64,000 nt of DNA from Pontederia crassipes (lineage: Eukaryota > Streptophyta > Magnoliopsida > Commelinales > Pontederiaceae). The notes beneath the pieces are model-generated. The model worked only from the letters and a program-made list of their open reading frames with translations. It was not told the DNA's origin and made no database searches. Positions 6,288-49,970 of the stretch are shown here, in pieces. Location of the stretch: positions 39,077,909 through 39,141,908 of the forward strand of contig CM060184.1 in assembly GCA_030549335.1 (NCBI GenBank), written 5' to 3'. A program made the translations under genes and the position numbers. The number at the start of each line of letters is the position of its first letter. The first letter of the stretch is position 1.

Positions 6288-7645
6288 AATAGACTGTTCA
6301 TGGCTACAGTGCGATTGTTTGTTTTGCTGTAATGTTTTCATCTTCATCCGATCCAGGGCGTCCAGAAAAGCCTCGTCCTCATGGAGGCCTTGGGGCTCGA
6401 CAGGCAGGGGGCTCTCATGGAACCATGCATGCTCGAGTGCAGCCTATGCTGTGAGCCTATGCTCCTGGTCATAATTGAGGAGGCCTTCGAGAAAGTGATA
6501 TCCGTCTTGGGACAACATTGGGCGACCGCGTCGCGGAGTTGCAGGGAAGAGCCTCCGGAGATTGCTCCATTGGCTTCCTGCGCTACCCATGGCCCTAAGA
6601 GCTTCGGGGATTGCAGACATGCCCGGCCACACTTTCAAATCTGGCGTTCCAAGAATGCTGAATATTTTGCGAATTTGATCAGACTCCGTCGTCCCTTGGG
6701 AGAGCGCGTGCTTATTAAGCATCTCCGCCATGATGCAACCTAGGGACCACATGTCGATGGAGGACGAGTACTCCTTGGCCACCACCAGCAGCTCCGGCGC
6801 CCTGTACCACAAGGTGACAACAGTCATCGTGTTACTCGTGTAGGGCGACGTCCCCTGCTGCTTGCAGTCACCGAAATTGCAGATTTTAAGGTCGCCGTAG
6901 TGGTCAACGAGGATGTTGGCCGTCTTGAGATCCCGATGGAGGATGCGGTGGTCGTGTATGCACTTTACGGCCCTCAGTAGTTGCAGCATTAAGAATTTGG
7001 TCTCGCCTTCTATGAACGGATGCTGCCATGACTGCAACACCTGCCAGAGGTTCGTGTAAGCGAAGTCCAAGACCAAGAACATGGCCTTACCATTGGCGTA
7101 TGTGGCCAGGTCCTTGAGCCGCACAACGTTTGGATGGCGGCAGGCGTCGAGGCACTCTACCTCCACCCGCAAGTAGGATCCACCAATCGCTTTAGGGCGA
7201 CGATCTGGCCGTCCCGGCGGTCATATGCCTTGAAGACCGCCGTAGCTGCCCTCGCCGATCTTGGTGGATACGACGAAGTTGCACTCGACGATGCAGCGCG
7301 GGACCATCACTGGCTGCTGTGGCCTCTTCTTGGCGACGTACTGCCGCTTCCGCTCGGCCTCAGCGGTTGCCACGGAGGGATCGTCGAGTCGAGGCTTCTT
7401 GGCGGAAGGCTCGGCCTCAGCAGTTGCAACGCAGGGATAGTGGAGTCGAGGTTTCTTGGAAGCAGCTGCCGCTCTGGTTCGGCCTCAGCAGTTGCGACGG
7501 TGGGATCATGGAGTCGAGCCTCCTTCTTGGCGGCAGGCACAACCTCAGCAGTCGCCACAGAGGGGTCATCCAGTCGAGGCCGTTTCTTGGAAATGGGAGT
7601 CCTCTCGACGGGGTAGACCAGCGTGTAGATAACAGGCGGAGCCAT
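6279..7645 (-). pseudogene. cyclin-dependent kinase pseudogene (CDKG/CDKF-2-like, intronless)
   Basis: This is a serine/threonine kinase of the CDK family. The start is the ATG at 7645 (MAPPVIYTL). An N-terminal region carries four tandem copies of a roughly 21-residue unit, KKxRLDDPSVATAEAEP, followed by the kinase fold: glycine loop GEGSYG, ALKRL lysine, HRDLKTAN catalytic loop, LWYRAPE and DMWSLGC. The PSTAIRE-type helix is replaced by ECLDACRHP. The gene is dead: there are reading-frame shifts in the N-terminal repeats, after the glycine loop near 7233 (apparent loss of a GT dinucleotide) and near 7172. A TAG interrupts the frame at 6444-6446 where Glu is expected, although the homologous frame continues 54 residues to the stop at 6279. 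The DFG aspartate is Asn (CNFG), which would abolish metal binding. No introns are visible, which fits a retrocopy or one of the intronless CDK types of monocots. Kinase family certain; subfamily tentative. Confidence 0.9.
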
Positions 7646-14651: not shown

Positions 14652-17511
<2,860 letters not shown>

Positions 17512-17530
17512 TTGCTACCCCCTTAAAAAG
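17512..17530 (-). other. polypurine tract of the chromovirus
   Basis: On the minus strand the sequence AAGGGGGTAG lies directly before the 3' LTR start TGTAATGC. This is the usual position for the plus-strand primer. Confidence 0.75.
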
Positions 17531-17590
17531 AAATTCGTCCACGAATTTAGAATAAAGTTAGGGCTTACCGAATAGTCTGGAAAATTTCTC

Positions 17591-18950
17591 TCACATTTCT
17601 GACTCTAATTCCCACGTGGCCTCTTTGCCTTGATGGTGCTTCCACGCCACCTTGACCGACGTCACTGTCTTCTTGTCCTTCTGGACCTCTTGGCGTTCCA
17701 ATATCTCTGTGGGCTGCTCCTCGTATGTTAAATCCTCCTTGAGGTTCGGCTCCTCAATTTGGATGACGTTGGCGTAGTCATGTTTGTATTTTCGGAGCAG
17801 CGAGACGTGGAAGACGTTATGCACTCTAGCGTATGCCGGGGGTAACGCCAACCTGCATGCGGAGTCACCAACCATATCCAAAATTTCAAAGGGACCCACG
17901 TACCTTGGGCTCAATTTCCCTTTCTTGCTAAATCTCATTACGCCCTTGGTTGGTGAGACTTTGAGCAAGACTTGTTCACCGGCCTTGAACGTGTGCTCTC
18001 GTCTTTTCTTATCGGCGTAGGCCTTCTGTCGGTCTTGAGCAGACTTCATCCTTTTTCTTTATGAGCTCAATTCGATTAGTGTACTCTTGTGTCTGCTTGC
18101 GAAGCTCAGTACTCAATAGCTTTCTTTCGCCGACTTCTCCCCAACATGCTGGGGAATGATATGGTCTGCCGTACAGAGCTTCAAATGGGGACATCTCTAT
18201 GCTTGCATGATAACTGTTATTATATGCGAACTCGATAAGTGGTAGATGATTGTCCCAATTACCATGCCAGTCAAAGGCACATGCTCGAAGCATTTCTTCC
18301 ACTGTTTGGATAGTTCGTTCTGATTGGCCATCCATCTGCGGGTGGAACGCCGTGCTATAACATAGCCTCATGCCAAAAGCATTCTGTAAACTTTTCCAAA
18401 ATCTGGCGGTGAACCTTGGATCTCGATCGGGCACGATGACAGAGGGGATTCCAAGGAGTCTGACTATCTCTTGCACATACAGATCCATCAGACTATCTAA
18501 TGACTGTTTCACTTTGATGGGTAGGAAGTGAGCCGATTTGGTGAGTCGATCCACCACTACCCAAATAGCGTCGTGTCCCTTCTGAGTTCGAGGGAGGCCT
18601 GTGATGAAATCCATAGTGATTTCCTCCCACTTCCATTGCGGTATTCCGAGGCTCTTAAGCGTACCATGAGGCTTTTGATGCTCTATCTTCACCTGCTGGC
18701 AAACTATACACTTAGACATGTACTCTGCTATTTCTTTCTTCATATCTGGCCACCAAAAGCTTCTCTGCACATCCTTGTACATCTTCGTGCTTCCAGGATG
18801 GATTGCGAATTCGGACTTGTGGCATTCGTCCAAAACTTCCCGTCTCAAAGCTGAGTTGTTGGGTACCCATAATCGTTCTCGATACCGAATGCCTCCATCT
18901 GACGAGACTTTGAAATCGTTTCCTTCCATACTTGTCTTGATCATCATGGT
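17591..18950 (-). pseudogene. chromovirus integrase and C-terminal module
   Basis: The zinc domain reads [18 protein letters not shown] with CIVCQQVK. The DDE core includes [19 protein letters not shown] and [13 protein letters not shown]. The C-terminal part ends with [18 protein letters not shown], which resembles a plant chromovirus chromodomain. Part of the fossil element. Confidence 0.88.
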
Positions 18951-19099
18951 CTGGTAGTCAGAGTGTTCGACTTGCGCTGCGATGATTCTTCCAATAAGGT
19001 CTGGCTCGATCCGCTGGATCATCATGAGCGAGCCATTAGATGTTATCTGTGGAGTCCACTTGAAGAGTTCCTCCATCATCTCGTATTGTCGGAGGCGCA

Positions 19100-19600
19100 T
19101 GAAGGCCACTGAGCCTTCCCATTTCCGACTAAGGGCATCGGCTACTGAGTTCGCCTGCCCTGGATGATAGTTGATGGCGAATTCGTAGTCCTTCAGGAAC
19201 TTCATCCATCGCCTCTGACGCATGTTCAAGTCTCTCTGAGTGAACACATACTTCAAGCTTTTGTGATCCGTATACACTGTGAACTGTTCTCCGTACAAGT
19301 AGTGTCGCCAGAGCTTGAGAGCAAAGACTATAGCTGCTAGCTCGAGGTCATGAGTAGGATAGTTGACTTCATGTTTCTTCAATTATCGTGATGCATAAGC
19401 TACCACCTTTCCATGTTGCATTAAAACACAACCCAGCCCTGTGCCGCTAGCGTCACTGTAGATCACATACCCACCACTGCCTGAGGGTAAGGTGAGTATG
19501 AGTGCGGAAGTCAATCGTCTCTTCAGCTCCTGAAAGCTTTCTTCGCACTTTGTGGACCAAATAAACTTTTCGCCTTTTCTGGTGAGCTTGGTCAATGGTA
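19100..19600 (-). pseudogene. chromovirus RNase H region
   Basis: The words [35 protein letters not shown] and [12 protein letters not shown] are the usual RNase H signature of Ty3 elements, directly after the reverse transcriptase. Part of the fossil element. Confidence 0.85.
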
Positions 19601-20480
19601 GTGCCAGTCTGGAGAAATCTTTGATGAATCTTCTATAATATCCTGCTAGTCCGAGGAAGCTTCTGATCTCCGAGACATTCTTTGGCTGAGTCCAATTTGA
19701 CACTGCCTCGACTTTAGCCGGGTCCACTGATATTCCATCTTTGGAAACGATGTGCCCAAGGAACATCATCACATCATTTGGTCCATCCAAAATTCACATT
19801 TGGAAAATTTTGCATGCAACTTTTTGGCTCTCAACATTTCCAAAATAATCCTCAGGTGCTCCTTGTGTTGTTCTATGCTGGGAGAATAGATGAGAATATC
19901 ATCCACGAAGACGATCACGAACTTGTCGAGATGTTCGTTGAACATTCGGTTCATCAAGTCCATAAATGCTGCAGGAGCATTAGTCAATCCAAATGGCATG
20001 ACAAGAAATTCGTAATGTCCATACCGTGACCTAAAGGCCGTTTTCGGGATATCTTCCTCTGCTACCCTGAGTTGATGGTAGCCGCTCCGCAGATCAATTT
20101 TGGAGAACACTTTAGCATTGGCGAGCTGATCGAATAAGTCGTCAATGCGAGGAAGGGGGTACTTGTTCTTTACCATGACCTTATTGAGCATCCGGTAATC
20201 TATGCATAGCCTCATTGATCCGTCCTTCTTCTTGACGAACATGACTGGAGCGCCCCATGGTGAGACTTGGGCCTGATGAATCCCTTATCTAGTAACTCTT
20301 GAATCTGAATTTTTAGCTCCTTCATTTCCGCTGGGGCCATGCGATACGGAGCTTTAGAAATTGGTGCTGTGCCTGGTACTAGCTCAATGTGGAAGTCGAT
20401 GTCTCTCTTCGGCGGTAGACCACTGACATCTTCAGGGAACACGTCCAGAAACTCCTTTACGACGTCTATGTCTTGAGAGG
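19600..20480 (-). pseudogene. chromovirus reverse transcriptase region
   Basis: Typical Ty3 reverse transcriptase words are present: [46 protein letters not shown] and the catalytic FVDDILIYS near 19890-19910. Part of the fossil element. Confidence 0.9.
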
Positions 20481-21243
20481 TTTTGGTAGGAGCTTCCACC
20501 TTGGTCACACTTGCCAGAAATTCTCTGCAACCTTGCTTGAGCAGTTTCTGAGCTTTCATTGCTGACACTATGATTTTGGGTTCCTTCCGGTGTATACCTC
20601 TGACTGTGACCTTCTCCTTAATGTTTACTCCAATCACCACCTTCTTCTGCTTGCACATGATGGTAGCGTCATGGCGAGCTAGCCAGTCCATGCCCAATAT
20701 GACGTCATAATCCCTCATGGGTATTATGATTAAGTTAGCAGGAAAATTCTTTTTATCAATTTCTACTGATACCTCAGCTAAGTATCTAGTAGTCCGTAAT
20801 GTTCCTTGTGGAGTAAGAATAGTCATGTTAGGTTCTAGATTCATAGGAGATAACCCCAAAGTGATAGCACACTCTTCTGATATGAAAGAATGAGTGGCTC
20901 CAGAATCAAATAAAATAGTAGTAGGTAGCTTGGCAATACAAAGCGTACCTTGAATGACATCAGCGTCATTCTGCTGAGTGTCCTCTTCCAGGTTGAAGAG
21001 TCGTCCTTGCACCAGAGGCTTGCGCTGTGGACACTCCTGGGAAAAGTGGCCCATCGTGCCACAATGATAGCAGGCGCCGGTATTCATGCGGCACACTCCA
21101 GCACGAGTCCTGCCACAAGTGTTGCACAAGACCTTCTCACCTGGTGCTGGTTGAGCCTGGGGAGCTCTGGGTTGTTGAGGCCTTTGTTGTGCCGGTCGTC
21201 TTGTCGACTGTTGGGGTTGCCTCTGCTGAGATTGCTGCTGCAC
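20480..21243 (-). pseudogene. chromovirus zinc knuckle and aspartic protease region
   Basis: The CCHC knuckle reads CYHCGTMGHFSQEC near 21030-21072, and the protease active site reads FDSGATHSF near 20883-20910, followed by VILGMDWL. These bind RNA and cut the polyprotein in active relatives. Part of the fossil element. Confidence 0.9.
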
Positions 21244-21249
21244 TGGAGC

Positions 21250-22075
21250 TTACTGAGGCTGACGAAGTGGTGGTAGAGGTGGTCGAGGCTGCTGCTCATA
21301 ATGATGCCGTTCAGTTTGTTGTGGGGCAGGGTACGGTCGAGGACGGTTATCCCGTCGCTGGTCTCGTCGTTGGTGGTGATTGTTCCTCCTGAATTGTTGG
21401 GGTTGGGACCCTTGTCCCACTTCTTGTTGCCCTCTTCTGGCATGTTGCAGCGCTTGCTGATCTCTTTCCATCAGAGTGGCCAGTTGGACTGCATCTGCAA
21501 AAGTTTTACAGTTGCCGGGTAGGGTTTGAGCTCTCAAACCCGGACGCAATCCATCAACAAAAGTTTTGGCCTTTTCTAGCTCGTCCATGGGTAGCTTTGT
21601 GTACTTCTGAAGACTGAAAAACTTGGCTTGGTACTGGGCCACCGTCATTGCCCCTTGGGTCAAGCTGAGGAACTCTTGTTGCTTCAACCGCTTCTGGAAG
21701 GCAGGGAAGAAGCGGACTTCGAACAATCGTCGGAAGTCGGCCCATGAAACCACCTTGATGCCTGTGAATTCGGTCGCCTTGGTCACCTTCCACCAATCTT
21801 TTGTAGCCTTGGTGAGGGTGTCGGCAGCGAATATCACTCGTTTGTGCTCTGGGCAGTCTAGGAGTTCGAACTTATCCTCCATAGTGCCAATCCACTCTTC
21901 TGCCACTGCTATGTCTCCTTCGCCGTTATAAGTAGGCGGCTTCAACCTCCAAAACTCTGTATGGTGCACTGGGGAGGCGGTTGTCGTTCTTGACGTTCTG
22001 GTTGAGGTGGAGGATTCTGAATTCCCTCATCGTTGGGGTTCTCAACCTCATCATTCAAGACGTGGGGAGGCATCT
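21250..22075 (-). pseudogene. chromovirus gag region
   Basis: The region has the words LKPPTYNGEGDIAVAEEWI and the capsid-like FFPAFQKRLKQQEFLSLTQG that are typical of gag in Tekay/Del-type plant elements. A glutamine- and arginine-rich tail leads to the zinc knuckle. Part of the fossil element at 14652-25069. Confidence 0.85.
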
Positions 22076-22296
22076 ATAAGGATAATATGACTGAATAAAT
22101 AAAAATCTCTTATAAAGAATTTATTTGGTACTTACTTGAGGAGTGGAGTTGCAGTTGCTCAGGAGGCTTGCACATGACTTTGCTCTGACTATGAGACCAA
22201 TGAACAATGAGGATAATGCAATGACTTATACTCTGTTATGAATGACAATGACACTGGTCTATACTCTACTATGAATAATGGGAGCTAAGAACTTAC

Positions 22297-22308
22297 GCTC
22301 TGATACCA
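22297..22308 (-). other. primer-binding site of the chromovirus
   Basis: On the minus strand it reads TGGTATCAGAGC, complementary to the 3' end of the initiator methionine tRNA. It lies three bases inside the 5' LTR, as usual for Ty3/gypsy chromoviruses. Confidence 0.9.
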
Positions 22309-22311
22309 AAT

Positions 22312-23886
22312 TGTAACGCCCCCAAAATCCGCCCTTCCGCCACGCTGGCGGTCAGACTGACTCTGGGAGCGCTACTCACTGCCTATGACTACTTTGACTT
22401 TGACTGGTCAACAACGGACCCACATGGCAAAAAAAATGATAAAGAATAATAATGATATAAAATGCGAAAGAATTATCATTACGAAACAACAAATGCCAAA
22501 AGTGATGAGATAATTCAAAAGAAATAGGGAACTAAGAATAGTTCAAAAGGGTTATGAGAATATCAACAAAAGCAAGGCTAAAAGGGAAATTCAAGGGTTT
22601 CATATTTACAATGTTTGATAATTCAATGCAGAATATAAATGGCGGAAAGCTGTAGTAATATTGCAAGTCATGTGCTGCCACCCTGAAGCTCTGCATTATC
22701 CATCTCCTCCCTAAGCAGGGTTCTCACCTGCAAAATCCCAAAGCAGGGGCATGGAATGCCCGTGAGCTAACGCCCAGTACTCATAGAATCATAGACGATG
22801 AAATGATAATCAATGATCAAATATTGTGTTCATTACTTTAACAATGTTCTATACAATGCTATGCTCTGTGATTCATTACTATGCTCTGATGTTCATTGCT
22901 TTGCTCTACTGACACTTATCATGCTCTGTTGTTCATTACCATGCTCTGTTATACTTTGTGTGGAACTACGTATTTTACAATACTATATGATCCTTGATGT
23001 TCGTTGTCCTATGTGAACTCAACTTTAGTTAATTGGGAAGCTAGATGTGTCTCTGTCTTGAATATTGCCAGGGTGCCCATAACAGGGAAGGTGTACACGT
23101 TGGCACAACCTTTTCGAAATGCAGGTGGGAGAATGTCTACATTCCAGGAACAGTGGTCGTTACGGACCCCGTAGGTTCACTGTCTCCTCAGCTAGCTACC
23201 TGTCCCTCTGACATAACAATGAAATTCACATATGCCCTCGTGGGGAAGAGTGCGTTCCTTGCGTCACTCTTATTCGGAGCACAGGTGGGAGATGACCTGT
23301 GGTCCAGAAGCAGTGGTATTTAAACTCAGTAGATACACTGTCTCCTCAGTGCAGCTACCTGCCCCTCCAATGCATTGACCTTGACCTTGACCTTGAATAA
23401 TACATAGCTATCCCATTAATTGATCTTTGCTTTGCTTATCTTCTTTACCAATATGGATTTTAAATCATGATTCAGAGAAGGGGGTGAAGTCTGATCCCCT
23501 TCCTGCGGACGAAGGGTCCGTTACTTGTTCCACTATATGGGACATGGCCTACAGCGAACCAGTCGAATGTGGGGCCCAATTAGGAAAACATCAAAGTGCA
23601 GACGATTGAGGTGCGTCGATCTGCCCGACATGACTCGGGCCGGATGGGGATGACCCAGGCCGGGCACTGGTGATGTTTTACGAGATATTGATATCACTTA
23701 AATATTTATTGCGATAAATAAAACTAACATTTGATGTAGCAGTTTCATGGATCTATTGGTGTCGGCCGAGCATGCTTCATGATATAACGATATAACAGAC
23801 TCAATACAACTAATGATTACATACTACTTAATAATAATAATACTCATGTATTATTACTGTACCGTAAATCTTGTGCGTGTCCAATT

Positions 23887-23923
<37 letters not shown>

Positions 23924-24264
23924 AACAAGGTAGGTGGATGTGACGAAAGGCGAGGGTGACTGTAAACATTAATAAGTAATAAAGGATATTTGAATTCACT
24001 CTAATCTTAAACATGCAGCATGTCCGAAGGCATTAATATTGCTATGCATTTAATATTGTGGCTATGTGCATATATTAGATGTAATGCCAGCATCTGCATG
24101 TGAGTTTAAGAATGCCACATGGAAAATCATGCAAAGCTATAAACTTACACATCAATTTTGTCCACTTCTTCCCTACAGTGTAATCATTAACGTTGGATAA
24201 TATTATAATCAACTCATGCACTCCAATGTCATCAGCACTCTACCGAGAGCAACAAATCTACCTA

Positions 24265-24325
<61 letters not shown>

Positions 24326-25069
24326 TACATCGATTTACCTCTTAGCAATATTCTAATCCCAAATACAAACGTGTGTGCCATATTCAAGAATTATGGTCGA
24401 CATTATATTCGGGTAAAGCAATATAAGTTAATAAAATTTTACATGTTTATGTGTGGTGTTCAGTTCGGCCGCATCCATTAACATACGTTAAATAATATGC
24501 AAACGGCATTACACTCATAGTATGAATTAAAATAAGTCTTTATATTTCGGAATTAATAATATAACATAAAGGATAATAACACAATAATACAGAAAGAGCA
24601 ATATATAATGTTAAACGATAAAACGAAGTTGAATCGAATTTCATGATAATTGATCTACATTTCTTCATCTAGAAATTTTATACGTCTACGGTACCTCTTT
24701 TGATCGTCCTACGTTTGCTCGTGTGCTTTATGGTTCTTGCGCTGATCACTATTCGTCTGTCGGTCGTAGTTCGTCGGAGACGGAGGAGAAGAAGAGAAGA
24801 TGGAGGCAGTCGCTTGAAAAGTCCAAAGGGGTGAATGTCCATGACCTTCTCCCTTTTATAATTACTGCTGCTTCTCTTCTACTGTGAAGGAGACGTGAGA
24901 GAAGAGGTGAAGGAAGAGTGAGGAAAGAGTGGGAGAGATGGTCTCGTGGGAAGTGGGAGAGAATAGGGGAGAGAAGTGGGGAGGGGAGAATGACCGTTTC
25001 TCACATTCTCCATTTTTTTTTTTTGCATTTTGAATTTTAAATAAAAGGAGTAAATGACCGGACATTACA
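22312..25069 (-). repeat. LTR of the chromovirus (5' LTR in element orientation)
   Basis: The 2758-bp partner of 14652-17511. It is nearly identical, including the same TA tract (near 23888-23922), a shorter AAT tract (24264-24325) and the same GA-rich block near 24780-25000. It should have carried the element promoter on the minus strand. Confidence 0.95.
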
Positions 25070-31090: not shown

Positions 31091-32588
31091 GGGTAAATTA
31101 CACCAAATGCCCTTCAACTTTAAGGTTTCCTCAGCGATACCCTCCAACTTCACTTTGTAACACAAATGCCCTTCATCTCTTAACGCATTTCACTCGATGC
31201 CCTCTTTACCTGGGATAGTCGGTTTTTCAATTTTTCATCGATGTGGCATCCACGTGGCTATCTCCTCTCTCCTCCACGCAAATAGTCGTCCGACGTAGCA
31301 TGCTCCGATGTGGCACATAGAATTACATCAATGCCCTCCAACTTTAAGGTTTGCTCAGCGATACCCTTCAACTTCACTTTGTAACACAAATGCCCTTCAT
31401 CTTTTAATACATTTCACCCCGATGCCCTCTTTACCTGGGACAGTCGATTTTTCGATATTTTTGTCGACGTAGCGTCCACGTGGTCATCTCATCTCTCCTC
31501 CATGCAAATAGCCGTCCGACGTAGCATGCTCCGACGTGGCACTATATATTAAACCATCTTACTTATCGTAAGTTGACCCACTCACTGTTAAATTATTTTC
31601 TTATTTCTCTCTTTATCGTCGTTCGCATGAAACCTCCTTCACCATTCGCACTCCTTCGTCGTTCGCTCTTCTTCATCGTTCGCCTCCTTCATCATTCACT
31701 TTTTGTGTTCGTCGGCGTTGTCTTTGTCCAAATTAGTGTAATTTTATGTGCATTTGGTGAGCAAACTTTAAAGTTAGAGTACACTTGCCCTCTTTACCTA
31801 GGACAGTCGGCTTCTCGATTTTTCATCGACGTGACGTTCACGTGGTCATCTCCTCTCTCTTCCACACAAATAGTCGTCCGACATGGCACTGCTCCGACAT
31901 GACACATAAAATTACACCAAATATTCTTCAACTTTAAAGTTTGCTCACCAAATGCACATAAAATTACACCAATTTAGGCAAAGACGACGCCGATGAACGC
32001 GAAAAGTGAATGATGAAGGAGGCGAACGACGAAGAAAAGCGAACGACGAAGGATGTTTCATACGAACGACGACAAAGAGGGAAATAAGAAAATAATTTAA
32101 CAGTGAGTTGGTCAACTTACGGTAAGTAAGATGGTTTAATATGTGGTGCCACGTCGGAGCGTGCTACGTCGGACGGCTATTTGTATGGAGGAGAGATGAG
32201 ATGACCACGTGGACGCTACGTCGACAAAAAATCGAAAAACCTGACTGTCCCAGGTAAAGAGGGCATCGGGTGAAATGTACTAAAAGATGAAGGGCATTTG
32301 TGTTACAAAGTGAAGTTGAAGGATATCGCTGAGCAAACCTTAAAGTTGAAGGGCATTGATGTAATTTTATGTGTCACGTCGGAGCATGCCACGTCGGACG
32401 ACTATTTGCATGGAGGAGAGAGGAGATGGCCACGTGGATGCCACGTCGACGAAAAACTGACTATCCCAGGTAAAGAGAGCATCGAGTGAAACGCGTTAAG
32501 AGATGAAGGACATTTGTGTTACAAAGTGAAATTGGAAGATATCGCTGAGGAAATCTTAAAGTTGGAGGACATTTGGTGTAATTTACTC
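31091..32588. mobile_element. palindromic Mutator-like element (foldback MULE)
   Basis: The element starts GGGTAAATTACACCAAATG and ends with its inverse, CATTTGGTGTAATTTACTC. It is flanked by the 10-bp duplication GATTAAATGA (31081-31090 and 32589-32598), in the 8-11 bp range of Mutator-like elements. Nearly the whole 1498 bp is an inverted repeat with arms of about 0.7 kb. Each arm carries two direct copies of a roughly 230-bp unit containing CAGCGATA, TTTGTAACACAAATGCCC or its inverse, and ACGTGG-type words. The inner part of each arm has a repeated TTCGTCGTTCG-type block. There is no transposase. A transcript through it could form a long hairpin RNA (inference). A related one-ended copy lies at 28262-28480. 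Confidence 0.88.
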
Positions 32589-32598
32589 GATTAAATGA

Positions 32599-35309
32599 AT
32601 ATCATGTTAACAACTAAAATGATAAAAAATAAAATAATTATAACAACAATATCTAAGATAAGGAGAGAGAGAGACTGGGTGTTTGACGTAGGAAAAAAAT
32701 TGAGAGAGAGTGTGGGGGGGGGGGGGGGGGGGTGAAATTGTGGGAGTGGGAGAGGGAGAGGGCAGGTGGGTATAATCATCACAATCTAGACAACTTCATA
32801 TCTCGAAAAATTTTAACATTTAATAAAACTAATTTGCAAACCCACCCAAAAAAAACTCTCACAAAAAAATTTGACTTGCAGTTTCATATTAAAAAAAAGT
32901 ATGTATAGTTTATGCATATAAATAATAAATAAATATTTAATAGAAATGTGGCTTTCGGTTGCATCCAATAATATCATAATTAAATTTAAAACTAAGTTAT
33001 TTAATATCTTTCATAATTAATCATTAAAAAATCTTTTTGATATTAATTATATATTAATATTAAATATAATATAGATAAATAACTTTCATGTTTAAATAAG
33101 TAATTAATTGTCAATCAAGATATAAATTTTATCTCAATTTTAAAATAATAATAAATTATTGACATAATGTTATCCTGAAATGTTTCACCTTCCATAAACT
33201 ATGTAAGAAAAAAAATTATGCTTTTTTAATTATAAGGATACTACCTAAAAATATTTTTTAAGCATGTAAAATAAGTTGCCGGAAAATCTTTTTCCCTACT
33301 AAACAATCGTCCACTCAAAAGTTTATAATAACATATTAAGTTTTAATTAATTGTAATGCTTATAGATTTTAATTAGTTATAAATTCTAAAGGACACATGT
33401 CATCATAACAAAGTGTCAAATATAATTCTCTCGTGGATAGTACTCTCCTTTTAATATCGTACTAGTATAATGCTTGCACGACGCGTAGATGGATGATACA
33501 AAATTAGACGAATAATAAGTTTATAAAATAAATAAATATTAATTAAATATATTTTAAAATTACTTAAAGAATATAATAATTATAAAATAAAGAAATAATT
33601 TATTAATTTTTCCAATTACCTTTGTGTCTCATTTATTTTATTGTTTTTTTAAAAAAATTATTCTACTAAAATGCATAATAGGGAAGAAGTCCTGTACAAA
33701 TGGTAAACTATATAATAAAATTATCTTAGACAGTAAAAATTTCTCGGTATGATGATATACTTAACCAAAAACTAAAAAGAATAATTTAATTCAAGTTTGA
33801 CTAAATGATTAGTAGATCATTTTTCATAGGCAATATCCTCTACCATGAATAACGCCGGATTCCATGTCTGGATTGATATTAAATTAAATGAGTTAATATC
33901 AATTAATATATTAAGTTAACATAGCCACGTCTAGTATTAGTTTATTTAACTACTTTAGAATTATTATAACCAGTTTCTTGCTACAAATACATTTAGTAAT
34001 TATAATAGTTAATTTAAATAGCATCTCAAGAATAATACCCATATCTAATATTATGAATTGAACAAATTTTATGAGTATACCCTAGTGGTTAAGAAAAATA
34101 AATTGTTATGAACAGATATTATATAAAATGAATCATTTAAAAGGAAAATATAGCATCAATAACTTTAGATAGAGGCATGGAATGCCATAGTTAAAAATTT
34201 AAAATATATGATAATTCACTTATGAGAAATTAATGGCACAAATATAGTAGTAAATAAATAAATAATAAACTACATACACTAATAATGCTTCAAGAAAAAT
34301 AAAATATATTTAGATGGTATATACAAATATGGAAATGCTTAAGCAAAAAATAGGAAGAATTACTTATGAGAAATAAATGCATAATAATTCTCACTGAAAA
34401 ATTAATGGCACAAATATAGAAGAAAAAAAATACTATAAAAACTATTGTGTTTGTACTCTACAATACTTTAAGAAGAAACATAAATTATATCAAAATGCCA
34501 TACACATATAATAATGCTTAAAAGACAAATATAAGGATTGTTATAATAAAAAAAAACATGTTATGGTAGTGTTCTAAAACATCTTAAAAGGGTTCCTCTG
34601 CAAAGAACTAATTCAAAGAAAAAAATGATAGATATGAAAGTGCTGAAAAGCAAACTAAAAGGATTCTCTTAAAAAACAACTAATAAAAATATCTAAATGT
34701 TTGTTGGGTTAGAGCACAAAAAGCACTTAAATTCGTGAACCATGACATGACGTCCAATATCTATCGATGTTGGCAAGACATGTGTTTGAGAGTATTTATA
34801 GGCTGTCATGAACGATTAAGTTCAGTTACATATTGTCTTAGTGGTTTTATTCGTATTGAAGTTAGATTTTGCCATTGGTAGTGGATAGTTATGGATTATT
34901 ATTAACCATTTCCAATAAGTGATAGCATTTTTTTATTGTTAACTTATTCGTAAGTTACAAAGTTAATTATTTTACATGCTTGGTAATATTTATTTAAAAT
35001 TGTGGCTAACTTCTTATGAAAAAAAGTACTTGCTATCTTGTTTTTAACCCACGTTACTTTTATATCCATTACAATACTCATGTTCAATGAGGAAATTAAC
35101 AATTAAACATAATATGATTTAACTGCTGAACATGTCGCATGATATATAAATATCTCCTTACTTACTACTATTTTTTAAAAATATAGCATGCATATGCAAT
35201 AGATAATATACCTTTTACTCTCGAAGAAATAATAAAATTGTTAGAAAAAGAAGACATGGAACTAATATTTATTTTCTTATTCAATTCTTTTAATAAGTAT
35301 ATAATTTCT
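32599..35309. other. AT-rich intergenic DNA with G-run and possible Helitron-like end
   Basis: A run of about 20 G lies near 32714-32733, within a purine-rich tract. A short TAGTATAATGCTTGCACGAC word at 33464-33483 resembles the end at 29363. No gene is visible in the rest. Confidence 0.4.
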
Positions 35310-39854: not shown

Positions 39855-41421
39855 TCAGAAGCAAGCTTCCAAGACGCAGCAACAACAAAGAGCAGCCAAA
39901 CTGCGAACCAGCAAGTACAGAATTAATTTGGGAGGATGGAGTTATTTTTTTGTATTACAAATAGGAAAATATTATTTTTTTTTGTCATGCTATAATAGCA
40001 AACTCCGAATTGTGGAGGTTCAACTCTTAAAGATCGAAAAATCGAAAATTGTAAAATACTACTAATTGGTAAAAAAAAATATTTTAAAAGGTAATAAATA
40101 ATATTTAAAAATTTGTCACATCCAAATATTAAATTCTATCTTTCGAAGTTATATTTTTATCGATTCTTAAGCTAAATTATATTTAAAAATACTTAAAATA
40201 AATAAAACTTTATCTTAAATAATTATTATGATGATACATAGATTTTTATAAGGATTTAAATAATTAGATTAACTGTATGAGAAAATATAGAATTGAATAA
40301 AATTGTAAAATCGTGGACATATATATATATATATATATCTCGATGATTGAGTGGGGGAAAGGATTTCACAAGTCTGATCAATATCGAACAGGGACAAATA
40401 TGAAAACATTTAGAACAGGTGAAGTCCGAACGTCATGGTCATGCTTACCCTTGAATTGCATGGCAAGATGTGTATTTAAATATTTAATCTACACCGTTCG
40501 AGTAATGCCTGCAATTTAATTATTGAGATTTTAATGTATTATTAAAAAACTGTATTACATTACATATATTAATATAATAAGTGTACAAAAATATTAAAGG
40601 CTTCTATTAAATTAATGTAGTGGCTGTTTACGTCTATTAATACATAATAATGAATATTTGATCGTTTTTAATAAACTATGACGCATCACAAGGGATTGGC
40701 TAATAGTTTTTTTGTAGTACAGACTACAAGAGCGCATATCTCCCTTTGTACTCGATGAAACTGGATTAATCTAATTTTTTATATTAACAGAACACTAATC
40801 CTAATACGTGAATTAATTAATTTATAATTCAAACCAAGGAAGCCGCGTATGATGGCGATAAAAGGTATCACCACTATCGTGCGCCGGTTCCGCTGATGTT
40901 GGAACTCCATGATCCGAGAGCGAGCGAACAACAAGGTGGTCGCCGCTGCCGCCGGCGTCGCCCCACGGCGTGTGAGGGGGGGGGGGGGGGGGGGGGGAGA
41001 GCTATCGGCGTCCGTCAGATCATAGACCGGTAGATCGCCGGATTTGGCGGAGATCTGGAAGACGCGAGAGAAGAAAAAGGACCCTGATCATAGGGGGAGA
41101 GAAGTAATGGCTTACCATCCCTCCATGAAGGTAGGTCCGGAACTCTTCTGTTCCGGCTGCTGCTGCTGCGGGTACTGCGGAGGAGGGTAGCCGGCCGGAG
41201 GATAACCCTGCGGGGGTGGTGGTGGTGGTGGTGGGTAACCCTGCTGCTGCGGCGGTGGATAGCCTACTCACGAGCACAACAAATAGAAACCATGGGAACT
41301 AAGAACTAAGTGTGATCTCATCAAATAGAACACTTCTCTGGAATGAGGCAGAAAGACCGGTCAGAGGCGGTGTACCTTGGGGCGGAGGGACGCCGATGGG
41401 CGCCTGGTTGTTGTAACTCAT
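39855..41421 (-). CDS. CYSTM-domain membrane protein (WIH1/WIH2-like), three exons
   Basis: The exons read on the minus strand are 41421-41376 (46 bp), 41263-41116 (148 bp) and 39900-39855 (46 bp), all bounded by GT...AG introns of 112 and 1215 bp. The joined product is 79 residues. It begins MSYNNQAPIGVPPPQ, passes through glycine-tyrosine-proline-glutamine repeats (GYPPP, QQQGYPPP) and ends MEGCLAALCCCCVLEACF. That tail is the CYSTM cysteine-rich transmembrane module, which in plant relatives anchors small stress-related or WINDHOSE-type proteins in membranes. Both introns interrupt a codon after its first or second base and restore the expected residues (Gly, Cys), which strongly supports the model. 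All cysteines expected at the end are present and no breaks are seen. The start at MSYNN is chosen over an upstream ATG at 41520 because family members begin MSY. Relation to WIH genes is by family resemblance only. Confidence 0.9.
40977..41000. repeat. G-run in intron 2 of the CYSTM gene
   Basis: About 24 consecutive G lie on the plus strand (C in the transcript), within a GC-rich part of the second intron. The length may be uncertain because of sequencing of homopolymers. Confidence 0.6.
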
Positions 41422-41434
41422 GACTTCTGCTACT

Positions 41435-41462
41435 ATCTCTCTCTCTCTCTCTCTCTCTCTCT
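41435..41462 (-). repeat. GA-repeat in the 5' leader of the CYSTM gene
   Basis: A CT run on the plus strand is read as (GA)n on the transcript just upstream of the start codon. GA-rich leaders are common in plants and may bind BPC/GAGA factors; that role is inference. Confidence 0.5.
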
Positions 41463-41530
41463 GATCCTCCGATGGTCGCCGAAGGATGAAGGAGAGAGGC
41501 GATGGAGGATCTCCTAGCAAGTTGTGTGGG

Positions 41531-41538
41531 TTTAAATA
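41531..41538 (-). promoter_or_regulatory. TATA-like box of the CYSTM gene
   Basis: On the minus strand it reads TATTTAAA about 110 bases before the ATG. It would place transcription start near 41500 and give a 5' leader of about 80 bases, consistent with a plant promoter. Confidence 0.5.
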
Positions 41539-41907: not shown

Positions 41908-42059
41908 AGAATTAATTACTTTATTTTTTGAGGAAAAGATGATTATCTATTGAATAAAATACCCGGAGCATGAGTACAAAATGTCGAGGAGACTAGTAGG
42001 TGGCGACTCCATCCAAAAAAGATCGGTGCATGCCGATCAGCCAAAATTCACAAGATAAA

Positions 42060-42560
42060 CAATAGCCCTATTAGACTACCGGTATGCATATTTAAATTTC
42101 AAAAAAGGAAAAGAGTCCAATAAGGTTAAGATGTCAGCGACTGCGCAATATGCCATGGAGTCTGGTTCCGCTTCTTCAAAATGTGAATAAGATTGGAGGA
42201 GTGGCATTCGATCTGGAGATGGGAGATCCCTTGGTCCTTGCAACGCTGTAGTCCCCATCGGAGGCCCCAAGTCTCAGCTTCCAAGACAGATGAGAAGCGA
42301 CGCCCAAGAGCACTTGCACAAATGAAAGATGAGTGAGAGAGGATTAAGTTGGATTGCAATCGAGGGGGTTATCAAGAAGCCAGGGGTCAGAAAGGAGACT
42401 TGTTGGTTCCCTGTTTCCGATGACACGCTGCATGCCCAGTCAAACCTGGTCTGCACACAAGAGGAGCATGCACCATGGCCAAAAGAAACTGCGGGCCCCA
42501 GTTGCCAAGGGAGGAGGCGACTAGGGCTGCAAAGGCGGGTACTTTTGCAAAACAAGTTGG
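42060..42560 (-). pseudogene. LINE ORF2, C-terminal RNase H-like part
   Basis: The text LEAETWGLRWGLQRCKDQGI and LQIECHSSNLIHIL matches the RNase H domain that ends many plant L1 ORF2 proteins. It is split across frames, with the tail PWHIAQSLTS near 42130. Confidence 0.7.
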
Positions 42561-42929
42561 GACCAAATATCTGAGTTAGAGTTGAGGGCCATGAAGATAC
42601 GCTTGACTAGTAAGGATGTGTGGATAAAGTTGAGGTTGTGAATGGTCAACCCGCCAAGGAGCCTGTGCTGTTGCAGTGTGCCAATTGGCGAGGTGAAGAC
42701 CAGACTCGTTGCCACTTGAAGACCAGAAAAAACTCCGCATTTGCTTATCGAGCTTAGAGATGGTTCCAGCAGAGATGTTGATAGATGAGAGGGTATGCAC
42801 AGGGACAGAGTTCATGACCGAATTGATGAGCACGACCTTCCCTGCGGAATTGAGGAACTTGGCCCTCCAGCTAGATAATTTGTCTGAGAGCCAATGAGTC
42901 AAGAAAGCCTGTTGTGGAGATGTTAGGCA

Positions 42930-44643
42930 TTAGTAAGTGATAGGAACCCCCAAGTAGTGGAATGGGTATGTACCAATATGGATGCCAAGGGTGTACACAA
43001 TACAGTGGCACTGGTGCTGGTTAAATTTCACCGGGAGGAAGACTTGTGATTTATCAAGATTAGGGTGCTGGCCCGAGAGAAGCACGTAGCGTTGGAAGAG
43101 GTTCTTGATATGCCGACAATTTTGTGGCTGAAGCATAGATGACGAGGTCATTTGCGAAGAAGAGATGGCTAAGCTGGAATTGATTAATCCTAAAGGTCTA
43201 ATGGTATTCTGTGCAACGACATCCTGAATTATCGATGAGAAAGTTGAGACGTGAGGATGAAAAGATATGGGGAGAGAGGGTCCTCCTGGCGAATGTCACG
43301 GCCGACCCGAAAATGGTCCGAGTGGGCGTCGTTGGCACATCAGGTGAAAATGGGGGATGAGATGCACGCTTTAATCCAGTTAATAAAAGGTACTGGGAAT
43401 GCATAAGGGTGAGAACATTAATAATGACAGTTGAGGAAACTTTATTGAAAGCCTTATCCATATCAACCTTGATAAGCATATTCTTAATATGACCAAAGTT
43501 CAGAGAGTGGATGAGCTCCTGCATGATGAGGATGTTGTCCTGGATTGAGCAACCCGACAGAAAAGCATATTGACAATGGTCAATAAAAGAAGAAAGGGTG
43601 GGGCATAGGCGTTCAGCGATGAGTTTGGAGAGGAGACGATAGATGACGTTGCAGAGAGCAATGGGGTGATAATCAGTAACAAGCATAGGATTGGGTTTCT
43701 TAGGGATGAAAGCGATTGAGTTGTCTCCCCAACCCCAACGTAACGAGCTGGTGAGGAAGAAGGATTGGATGGTTCGAAAAACTTGATCACCGACAATAGG
43801 CCAGTAGTGGCGGAAGAACTCAGTAGTGTAACCATCCGGGCCCGGGGCCTTGCCTGAAGGCATGGCCCAGAGAGTGGTGTGGATTTCCTCTTCCGAGACT
43901 GGGTGGATAAGGTGGCTATGCCATGATTGAGAGAGGGTGGGCAGATTCGGCCAGAGGGAAATGTCTATTACAAGGCAGGGGTCAGTGTGCCAACGCGGGC
44001 GATAGTGGTCAGCAAAAACCTTAGGAATCTGATCTTCCGCCGCAAAGGAGTTCCCTGCAGAATCAGTGATGGTAGAAATGTGATACATGCGATGGCGAAC
44101 CATGGTGCTGAGGTGAAAGAAGGTAGTGTTTCTATCGTCGTGATGAAGCCAGGCGGCATGAGATTTACTCCACCACTTGAGGTTAATCTGATGGAGAAGA
44201 GCGACGTGGAGATTATATAAAGCCTCAAGGGAAGAGAGCTCCGAAGGGCTGAGGCTAGATGTGGAGTCTTTGGATTCAAGTACACGAATGCGCTCCTTGG
44301 TGATGGTCAGGCGAGTTTCCAAATGGCCCAGGTCATACCGGTTCCAATGGAGGGTCTGCTTACGGATATTCTTAAGGGATGCCACAATGTCTAGGTTGGG
44401 GGGAAGGGTGGAAGGGGGAATCCACTCCTTGCGAACAATTTCACGGGCTTCGTCGTACTTGAGCCAAAAATGCTTGTAGCGGAAGGGATGAGGCATGGCA
44501 CGATTATGGTTCGTATAAAAAAGAAGTGGGGCGTGATCAAAAGCAGTGCAATCGAGAGTGCGAAGGGTGAGGGAGGGGAAGTTTTGAATCCAATGGTGAC
44601 TAACAACAGCAGTCGAGCCGACACAAAATGCGAGCTCGGCCAC
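42930..44643 (-). pseudogene. LINE ORF2, reverse transcriptase part
   Basis: A 481-codon open stretch (43198-44643) contains the linker, FKYDEAREIVRKEW-type text and the reverse transcriptase: MPSGKAPGPDGYTTEFF, NSIAFIPKKPNP, YHPIALCNVIYRLLSKLIA, CQYAFLSGCSIQDNIL and KVDMDKAFNKV. The catalytic FADD box lies in another frame at 43147-43158 and reads FAND, so one catalytic aspartate is lost. Frame shifts between 43200 and 43400 separate it from the body. The enzyme is therefore inactive on two counts. Confidence 0.9.
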
Positions 44644-45182
44644 TACAATTGTTGCACTAGGTGAAGGGGGTGTTTGATGACGGGATGTAAAAAAAGGCCT
44701 TGATTGGTGATGGTGGATGCAAGTAGTCGACCAACCCGATTAAGACTAAAAGAAGAACCCCCACGCTTCTCTATGCAAAACTATATTAAAATCTTCGATT
44801 AAAAGCCAAGGAAAAATCAAGAGAGGCAAAGTACCAAGGGAGTTCCACAAATCCGTATGCAAAATAGGGAGAACACTAGTATAAACATTAGAGAGAATGA
44901 AGGAGAAAGAATCGTTAGAAACAACAGTGTGCAAAATTTGCGGTGTGGTTAATATACTAGTTACCTGTAGGGTATTGACACGCCAGGCGAGCAGGATACC
45001 CTCCACAGAGCCGCTACCTACTTGGAAGGTGCCTGACCACTGGCGACCGAGACGACGAATGACCCGTAGTGAGTTGGCGACATGAGTGTGCATTTCAACA
45101 AGAATGATTAGATCTAGGAGCTGACTGCGTCCCGAGCCTTGTTGCGAAGGGCCCCGCAACAGTTCCACATTAGGATCTTCAT
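44640..45182 (-). pseudogene. LINE ORF2, endonuclease part
   Basis: The start ATG is at 45182 and the product begins MKILMWNCCGALRNKARDAV, the usual first residues of plant L1 ORF2. A frame shift follows within about 25 residues, and the frame continues as LDLIILVEMHTHV, VNTLQVTSILTT, SFILSNVYTSV and DFNIVLHREAWG, the apurinic endonuclease (EEP) fold. The usual VETH of the active site reads VEMH. A second shift occurs before the region TAFDHAPLLFY, equivalent to the SDH end of the domain. It cannot give a full product. Confidence 0.85.
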
Positions 45183-45203
45183 TCCAGAGAGAATTAATTA
45201 CTT

Positions 45204-45263
45204 GACGTATTCTGGTTTACATTGTTGTGTTTAATTTTTTTGACTATGATGATGATGATGATC

Positions 45264-48021: not shown

Positions 48022-49970
48022 TGTAACACCCCCGAAATCGCACCTCCCGCCACGTAGGCAGTCAGTTTGACCCCAGGGGCGCTACACTGCCTATTGCTCT
48101 ACTGACCTTGACCATTCAACAAAACAACTTACGTGGCGCTAGTAAAATAATAATAAACATAATAGAGGACTTTAAACGCGGAAGAGTAGTCAAAATGCCA
48201 TGATGAATGACTTAATGCGGAAATCCATAATGTCTTATTTTATAGAAAATAAGCGAAAGTTTGAGATGGTTCATATTACAGAAATATGTAGAAGTTCATA
48301 GAGCGGAAGGAACATGGTGTCTCTGAACATAATATAATAAAACGAAAATGCAATAGAAAAGCTCGGTGTGGACAGGTCAGTCGTGTGCAGCGTTCACCAA
48401 GCTCTGCGTTCTCCAATATCTCCTCAGTTGGCATTCTCACCTGCAAAATCCCAATGCAGGGGAATAAAATACCCATGAGCGAGATCGCCCATTACCATAG
48501 CAATAGACGTGAAATAAGGATTAGTGATGATAAGGAAATCAATGTATGAATCTTTAATCATATCAATACTATGTTCTTTGCTTTACATTACTCTGCTTTA
48601 CTTTACAGTAGTTTGCTTTATATTACTCTGCTGTACATTGCTTTACTTTACATTGCCTTGCTTTCCAATACTCTGCTTTGCTTTGCTTTACTCTGTTGTG
48701 AGTTGTGCTACATCTTTTACATTACTAAATTATCCTTAGAGTTGGTTGTCCTATGTGAGCTCGACTTTATTAGGTTAGGATGCCAGAGGTGCCTCTCTGA
48801 TTCACTGATGCTAGTAAGCCCGTAAATGGGAAAGAGGGTAGGTGTTACAGCCTCACCCCAATTCGGAACGTAGGGGAAAGAATTCCTATAATCCAGGAAC
48901 AGTGGTCGGTTACAAGACCTTATAGGTTCACTGTCTCCTCAGCTAGCTACCTGTCCCTCTGACATAATACTTTAATCTTTAAAGGAAGAGGTGTGGCCAT
49001 AGCATCACCCTTCAATTCGAGATATTGGTGGGAGAACACCTGAAATCTCAGGAATAGTGGCATCTAAGCCAGTAGCTTCGCTATCCCCTCAGCTAACTAC
49101 CTATCACTCCATTGCTTTAAATCTGAACTTTGCTTTAACTTTAAGACGGCACATAGCAATCCCGCTTCTTTGTCTTTACTTTAATCATCTTTAGTTACTA
49201 TGAAATCTATAGTTTGGGGTCCACTGGAAATCTATGTTTGTACAATAAGACTCAGCCAGTGTAGGTGAACTGGTCAGAGTCGTAATTAAGATTGGGAGTG
49301 GATCAATCCGATTAAGCTTTGATTATTGGGTCTCTGTCAGACCGGTCGATTGATAAGAAAGAATACACATGTATAATTACGCAGACCGGTCGACCGTTTA
49401 ATTAAATCGGTTGACCGGTCTCTGCGGTAAAATAGAGCCGCCGGATTTCTCCATGGATTTCGGCAGCCGTCCGGCCGTCGATTGATGCCGACATCAATAC
49501 AAAAATAAAATAGGAAATAACTTTAGGATTATAATGAATTAACTATACGCTTCAATAGATCTTTAATTCTTCGTCTATGGGATTAAAATGCTAAGGGTAC
49601 CTTTTTCGTCGGAAATCGGATTCGCCGGATCACCGCTCGTCGTCCGTCGATCGCCGGACATTCACCGTCGCCTGAAAGGATTTACCTCTGTCCTGCCGCT
49701 CGCGTACGCCGGTCGCCGGACGAGAGGGAAAAGGAAAAGACGAGAACCGAGAGAACGAGAGAGAAGGAGAGAGAGAGTGTGTGAGTGAGAGAGAGAGTGT
49801 ACGAGAGAGTGGGGGAGAGGGAGTACGAGAGAGTGGGGGTGAGGGCCCCCCCCCCCCCCCCCCCCCCCCTTTTATACTCCCCTCGGCCCACTTTTGGAGG
49901 TGAACAATTCGTTTCATCTCTTTTTATTTATTTATTTATTTATTTATTTTTATGTATACGAGACGTCACA
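48022..49970. mobile_element. solo LTR of a Ty3/gypsy family related to the 14.6-25 kb element
   Basis: The 1949-bp LTR begins TGTAACACCCCCGAAATCG, ends GAGACGTCACA and is flanked by the duplication AAAGT (48017-48021 and 49971-49975). Its first 120 bases align with the chromovirus LTR (GCCACGTAGGCAGTCAG, GCGCTACACTGCC). It also shares the GTTCACTGTCTCCTCAGC blocks and an array of TTGCTTTAC-type words. The rest has diverged, so it is a sister family. It has no internal region. A C-run of about 25 lies at 49845-49868. Confidence 0.9.

Follow-up and report, generated by a model that had tools for sequence, protein, structure and literature searches.

An apparently intact three-exon gene of the CYSTM family on contig CM060184.1 of Pontederia crassipes

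The window analysed here is a stretch of 64,000 nucleotides of contig CM060184.1 of Pontederia crassipes, and all positions given below refer to it. On its minus strand lie three coding segments which are separated by GT-AG introns and join in frame, exact to the base with respect to the initial annotation. The coding part of exon 1 (41376..41421, 46 bases) ends in phase 1 and is followed by intron 1 (41264..41375, 112 bases). Exon 2 (41116..41263, 148 bases) encodes the P/Q/Y-rich head of the protein and ends in phase 2, within the first Cys codon. After intron 2 (39901..41115, 1215 bases, overall GC content of 33.5%), the coding part of the last exon (39855..39900, 46 bases) provides the cysteine-rich tail and the stop. 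The joined segments (46 + 148 + 46 = 240 bases) make up 79 codons plus the stop. Splicing at the junctions 41376/41263 and 41116/39900, which are the positions originally claimed, reproduced the 79-residue product with its MSYNNQ start and its CLAALCCCCVLEACF tail. At the second junction 12 donor/acceptor pairs were tried; the exact protein was obtained from two of them, and among these two only 41116/39900 has GT-AG borders. When intron 2 was kept, a stop was found immediately past FMEGW, giving 65 residues and the read-through end that had been foreseen. Retention of intron 1 led to a stop after 40 residues.

The strength of the splice sites was also evaluated. Scored against the 9-position donor consensus, the two donors match at 7 and 6 positions and are among the best five of the 72 GT sites located from 41421 to 39855; the better of the two shares its count with a GT at 40448 that the gene model leaves unused. 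The acceptors are mediocre; when pyrimidines were crudely counted, those of introns 1 and 2 came 29th and 16th, respectively, of 69 AGs, with ties broken arbitrarily. The gene model rests more on its product and on the phases common to Arabidopsis, described below, than on site strength.

A CYSTM profile search of the 79-residue product had been proposed beforehand in the initial annotation, and it gave a match to the Pfam family CYSTM (PF12734), with 57.3 bits and E = 1.7e-15, covering profile positions 1-37 of 37. The Pfam cut-off for this family is 25.2 bits. Alternative readings of the same DNA were compared with the profile. The product with intron 2 retained reached 15.1 bits, below the cut-off, and that with intron 1 retained had no match to the CYSTM profile, while two out-of-frame joins gave 22.1 and 18.1 bits. 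The residues of the last exon alone, extended by a glycine pad, scored 17 bits, also below 25.2. One tail sequence scrambled by hand, with its composition unchanged, reached 26.5 bits, just over the cut-off; composition therefore explains part of the CYSTM score, and the order of the residues adds about 31 bits.

The tail was also examined by pattern. The pattern L..[LM]CCCC.[LM]..C occurred once in the six frames of the window and in none of 300 simulated 64-kb windows from a first-order Markov model. CCCC was found at two places in the window, the second being antisense to the repeat-rich exon 2. A stricter tail pattern including the split Cys had no match in the unspliced frames of the window, as expected if an intron interrupts the Cys codon. 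Judging by these controls, we regard the tail and profile match as not due to chance. The claim of an intact-looking CYSTM-family gene was thus borne out by the open spliced frame together with the PF12734 match.

Other searches were less informative. The spliced product had no match among PDB sequences up to E = 10 or in NCBIfam up to E = 1, and none of four tail peptides was found as text in the literature. In searches for relatives, 26 stretches of the viral_contigs and 285 of the genome_contigs collection matched a pattern, with none of these confirmed by tblastn; both collections are described as consisting of viral and prokaryote contigs and have little bearing on plants. A sigma-70 promoter scan of the window is inapplicable to a plant gene. 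The gene may belong to the WIH (WINDHOSE) clade, to which it had been likened, or to another CYSTM subgroup; membership of the WIH clade is defined by grouping in a tree with Arabidopsis WIH1-3 and by a role downstream of WUSCHEL.

Upstream of the coding region, a TATA-like box (TATTTAAA, 41531..41538, minus strand) was located as a pattern match only, 117 bases before the ATG. The stretch between them (41422..41530, minus strand) includes a (GA)n tract, is free of ATG from 41530 to the start codon, and probably contains the 5′ untranslated leader. Further upstream and on the same strand there is a decayed LINE-like element (41920-45216), assigned to this class by eye, with an RVT_1 match in the ORF 43201-44739. 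The A-rich end of the element appears by eye to lie near 41920, upstream of the TATA-like box by a few hundred bases.

Taking into account this decayed reverse-transcriptase element on the strand of the gene, the promoter may be altered. It is conceivable, though improbable, that the locus is a recently silenced copy, that is, a pseudogene without visible lesions whose transcription ceased because of transposons landing alongside it. The RVT_1 element (43201-44739) would fit such a history, as would the other transposon-derived sequence found in the window, whereas the reading frame, the phases, the splice borders, the TATA-like box, and the stop are all in place. From the open spliced frame, the GT-AG introns with phases like those of an Arabidopsis relative, and the full-length CYSTM match, we consider it very likely that the locus is an ordinary, probably functional plant nuclear gene for a CYSTM-family protein.

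The initial annotation described the gene as hidden by an unusual structure with two "46-base exons". The term is a misnomer: in the first and last exons alike, 46 bases is the length of the coding part, and each exon would also carry untranslated sequence. The idea of an unusual structure could not be upheld either, since the 46-base last segment and the junction phases agree with those of Arabidopsis CYSTM1 and the three exons with those of pepper Bs5, as far as the passages on these relatives describe them. At the level of bases, the structure was compared with one relative, CYSTM1 (AT1G05340), by means of fragments that Table A1 of PMC13205671 labels "Exon 1" (31 bases from the ATG) and "Exon 3" (46 bases, to the stop) and for which the passages of that paper give no gene model. 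The first coding segment has 31 bases in Arabidopsis and 46 in the present gene, and in both it ends in phase 1. The last coding segment has exactly 46 bases in both, with the same start of the tail: in the present gene it opens with a T that is the third base of the split Cys codon, and a single T likewise leads the AT1G05340 fragment. The tails read LAAMCCCCALDICF in Arabidopsis CYSTM1 and LAALCCCCVLEACF in the present gene. By script, 31 of the 46 bases of these fragments are identical and 15 differ, and 11 of 15 codons, counting the stop, give the same residue. Eight of the 12 differing codons are synonymous, a pattern that speaks for conservation of the coding sequence.

The excerpts of PMC10030403 describe pepper Bs5 as a gene of three exons, like the present one, encoding 92 amino acids, compared with 79 here. 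The GYPP repeats of its cytoplasmic part were counted as a likeness to the present protein. The bs5 deletion removes two leucines of the transmembrane part, in the third exon. According to the same excerpts, FME opens the transmembrane part in pepper CaCYSTM2, as it does in the present protein, whereas bs5 has LLQ where the present protein has FME. The three-exon layout, which is not a formal Pfam criterion, is therefore known already in two of the studied plant members, as described in these sources, and the layout of the gene is not special. Plant microexons often missed by annotation are, in the passages of PMC8831610, those of at most 15 bases and belong to a different class. On sequence grounds, then, the gene appears to be a further member of the known CYSTM family, with an anatomy already seen in two relatives.

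The protein shows the hydrophobic cysteine-rich C-terminal module behind a polar head which is a feature of CYSTM. Its first 60 residues include 23 P, 12 Q, and 6 Y and have a mean Kyte-Doolittle value of −1.54, against 2.35 in the last 15 residues, where all six cysteines are found. As reported in the passages of PMC3903633, PCC1 depends on its cysteine-rich C-terminus both to anchor in the plasma membrane and to form homodimers, and its N-terminal part meets COP9 subunit 5 (PMC3903633, PMC8049917). Pepper Bs5 is likewise described as a tail-anchored protein (PMC10030403, in excerpts). By analogy with these relatives, the present product is most likely a tail-anchored plasma-membrane protein with a cytosolic P/Q/Y-rich head and a six-cysteine tail. 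It would be made in the cytosol, as in the studied relatives, and its short hydrophobic cysteine-rich C-terminal tail would insert into the plasma membrane, as proposed by analogy with PCC1 and Bs5. The P/Q/Y-rich head would face the cytosol and bind partner proteins, and the tail may support dimerisation, as in PCC1. The eight Arabidopsis PCMs described in the excerpts of PMC8049917 have 71-82 amino acids; PCM1-5 gave a plasma-membrane signal and PCM6-8 a cytoplasmic and nuclear one, which makes the membrane location uncertain for any given CYSTM member. Again by analogy, the gene probably has a role in stress or defence responses or in growth. PMC10030403 states that what CYSTM proteins do at the molecular level is unknown.

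Two readings of intron 2 would change this picture. Its retention could be regulated, so that the gene would yield two proteins, the membrane-anchored CYSTM form and a soluble 65-residue head ending in FMEGW; if true, splicing would switch the protein between membrane and cytosol, but we hold this to be very unlikely. Still less credible is that the principal transcript terminates within intron 2 and encodes only the soluble, tail-less 65-residue protein, a reading suggested by the in-frame stop directly after the second donor and opposed by the 15.1 bits of this form, under the CYSTM cut-off of 25.2, by the agreement of the last coding segment with the Arabidopsis fragment in length and phase, and by the loss of the anchoring tail. 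The fully spliced gene remains the preferred reading, and its significance lies mostly in annotation, as a small gene correctly read from raw sequence. Considering that pepper Bs5, a CYSTM gene, affects disease susceptibility (PMC10030403, in excerpts), it is important that the last exon be modelled correctly; in the present gene, this exon provides nearly the whole cysteine-rich tail.

Other elements are found in the window. On the minus strand, 6447-7220 contains part of a protein kinase, with a Pkinase match of 162.5 bits that spans, in a single frame, positions 45-254 of the 263 in the profile. No Pfam match up to E = 0.01 was obtained for the neighbouring ORF 7224-7484, and a kinase-like start was seen by eye seemingly within this separate ORF, so that 6447-7484 is probably a broken copy. 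We take this fragment to resemble a cyclin-dependent kinase. The broken look of the kinase fragment is in line with the statement that the CYSTM gene is the only undamaged host gene of the window. The Pfam scan covered 19 of the window's 82 stop-to-stop ORFs with a length of 85 amino acids or more, and on that coverage the sole status may or may not hold.

A Ty3-type retrotransposon occupies 14743-24988 on the minus strand, with Pfam matches to gag, protease, RT, RNase H, and the integrase zinc domain; the matches to the integrase core and chromo domains stay under the Pfam cut-off, and the reading frame is split across several ORFs. The element is flanked by direct-repeat blocks that lie some 7.6 kb from each other and are 95-100% alike among the families listed, and its insertion is therefore perhaps fairly young. 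A cluster of long inverted repeats (31093-32586) has arms of up to 249 bases, 86-94% complementary, and could fold into a large hairpin. A run of 22 C was observed on the minus strand within intron 2 (40976-40997). Other G/C runs of at least 15 bases lie at 32714-32732 and 49846-49869, and the long G/C runs of the window are possible trouble spots for sequencing.
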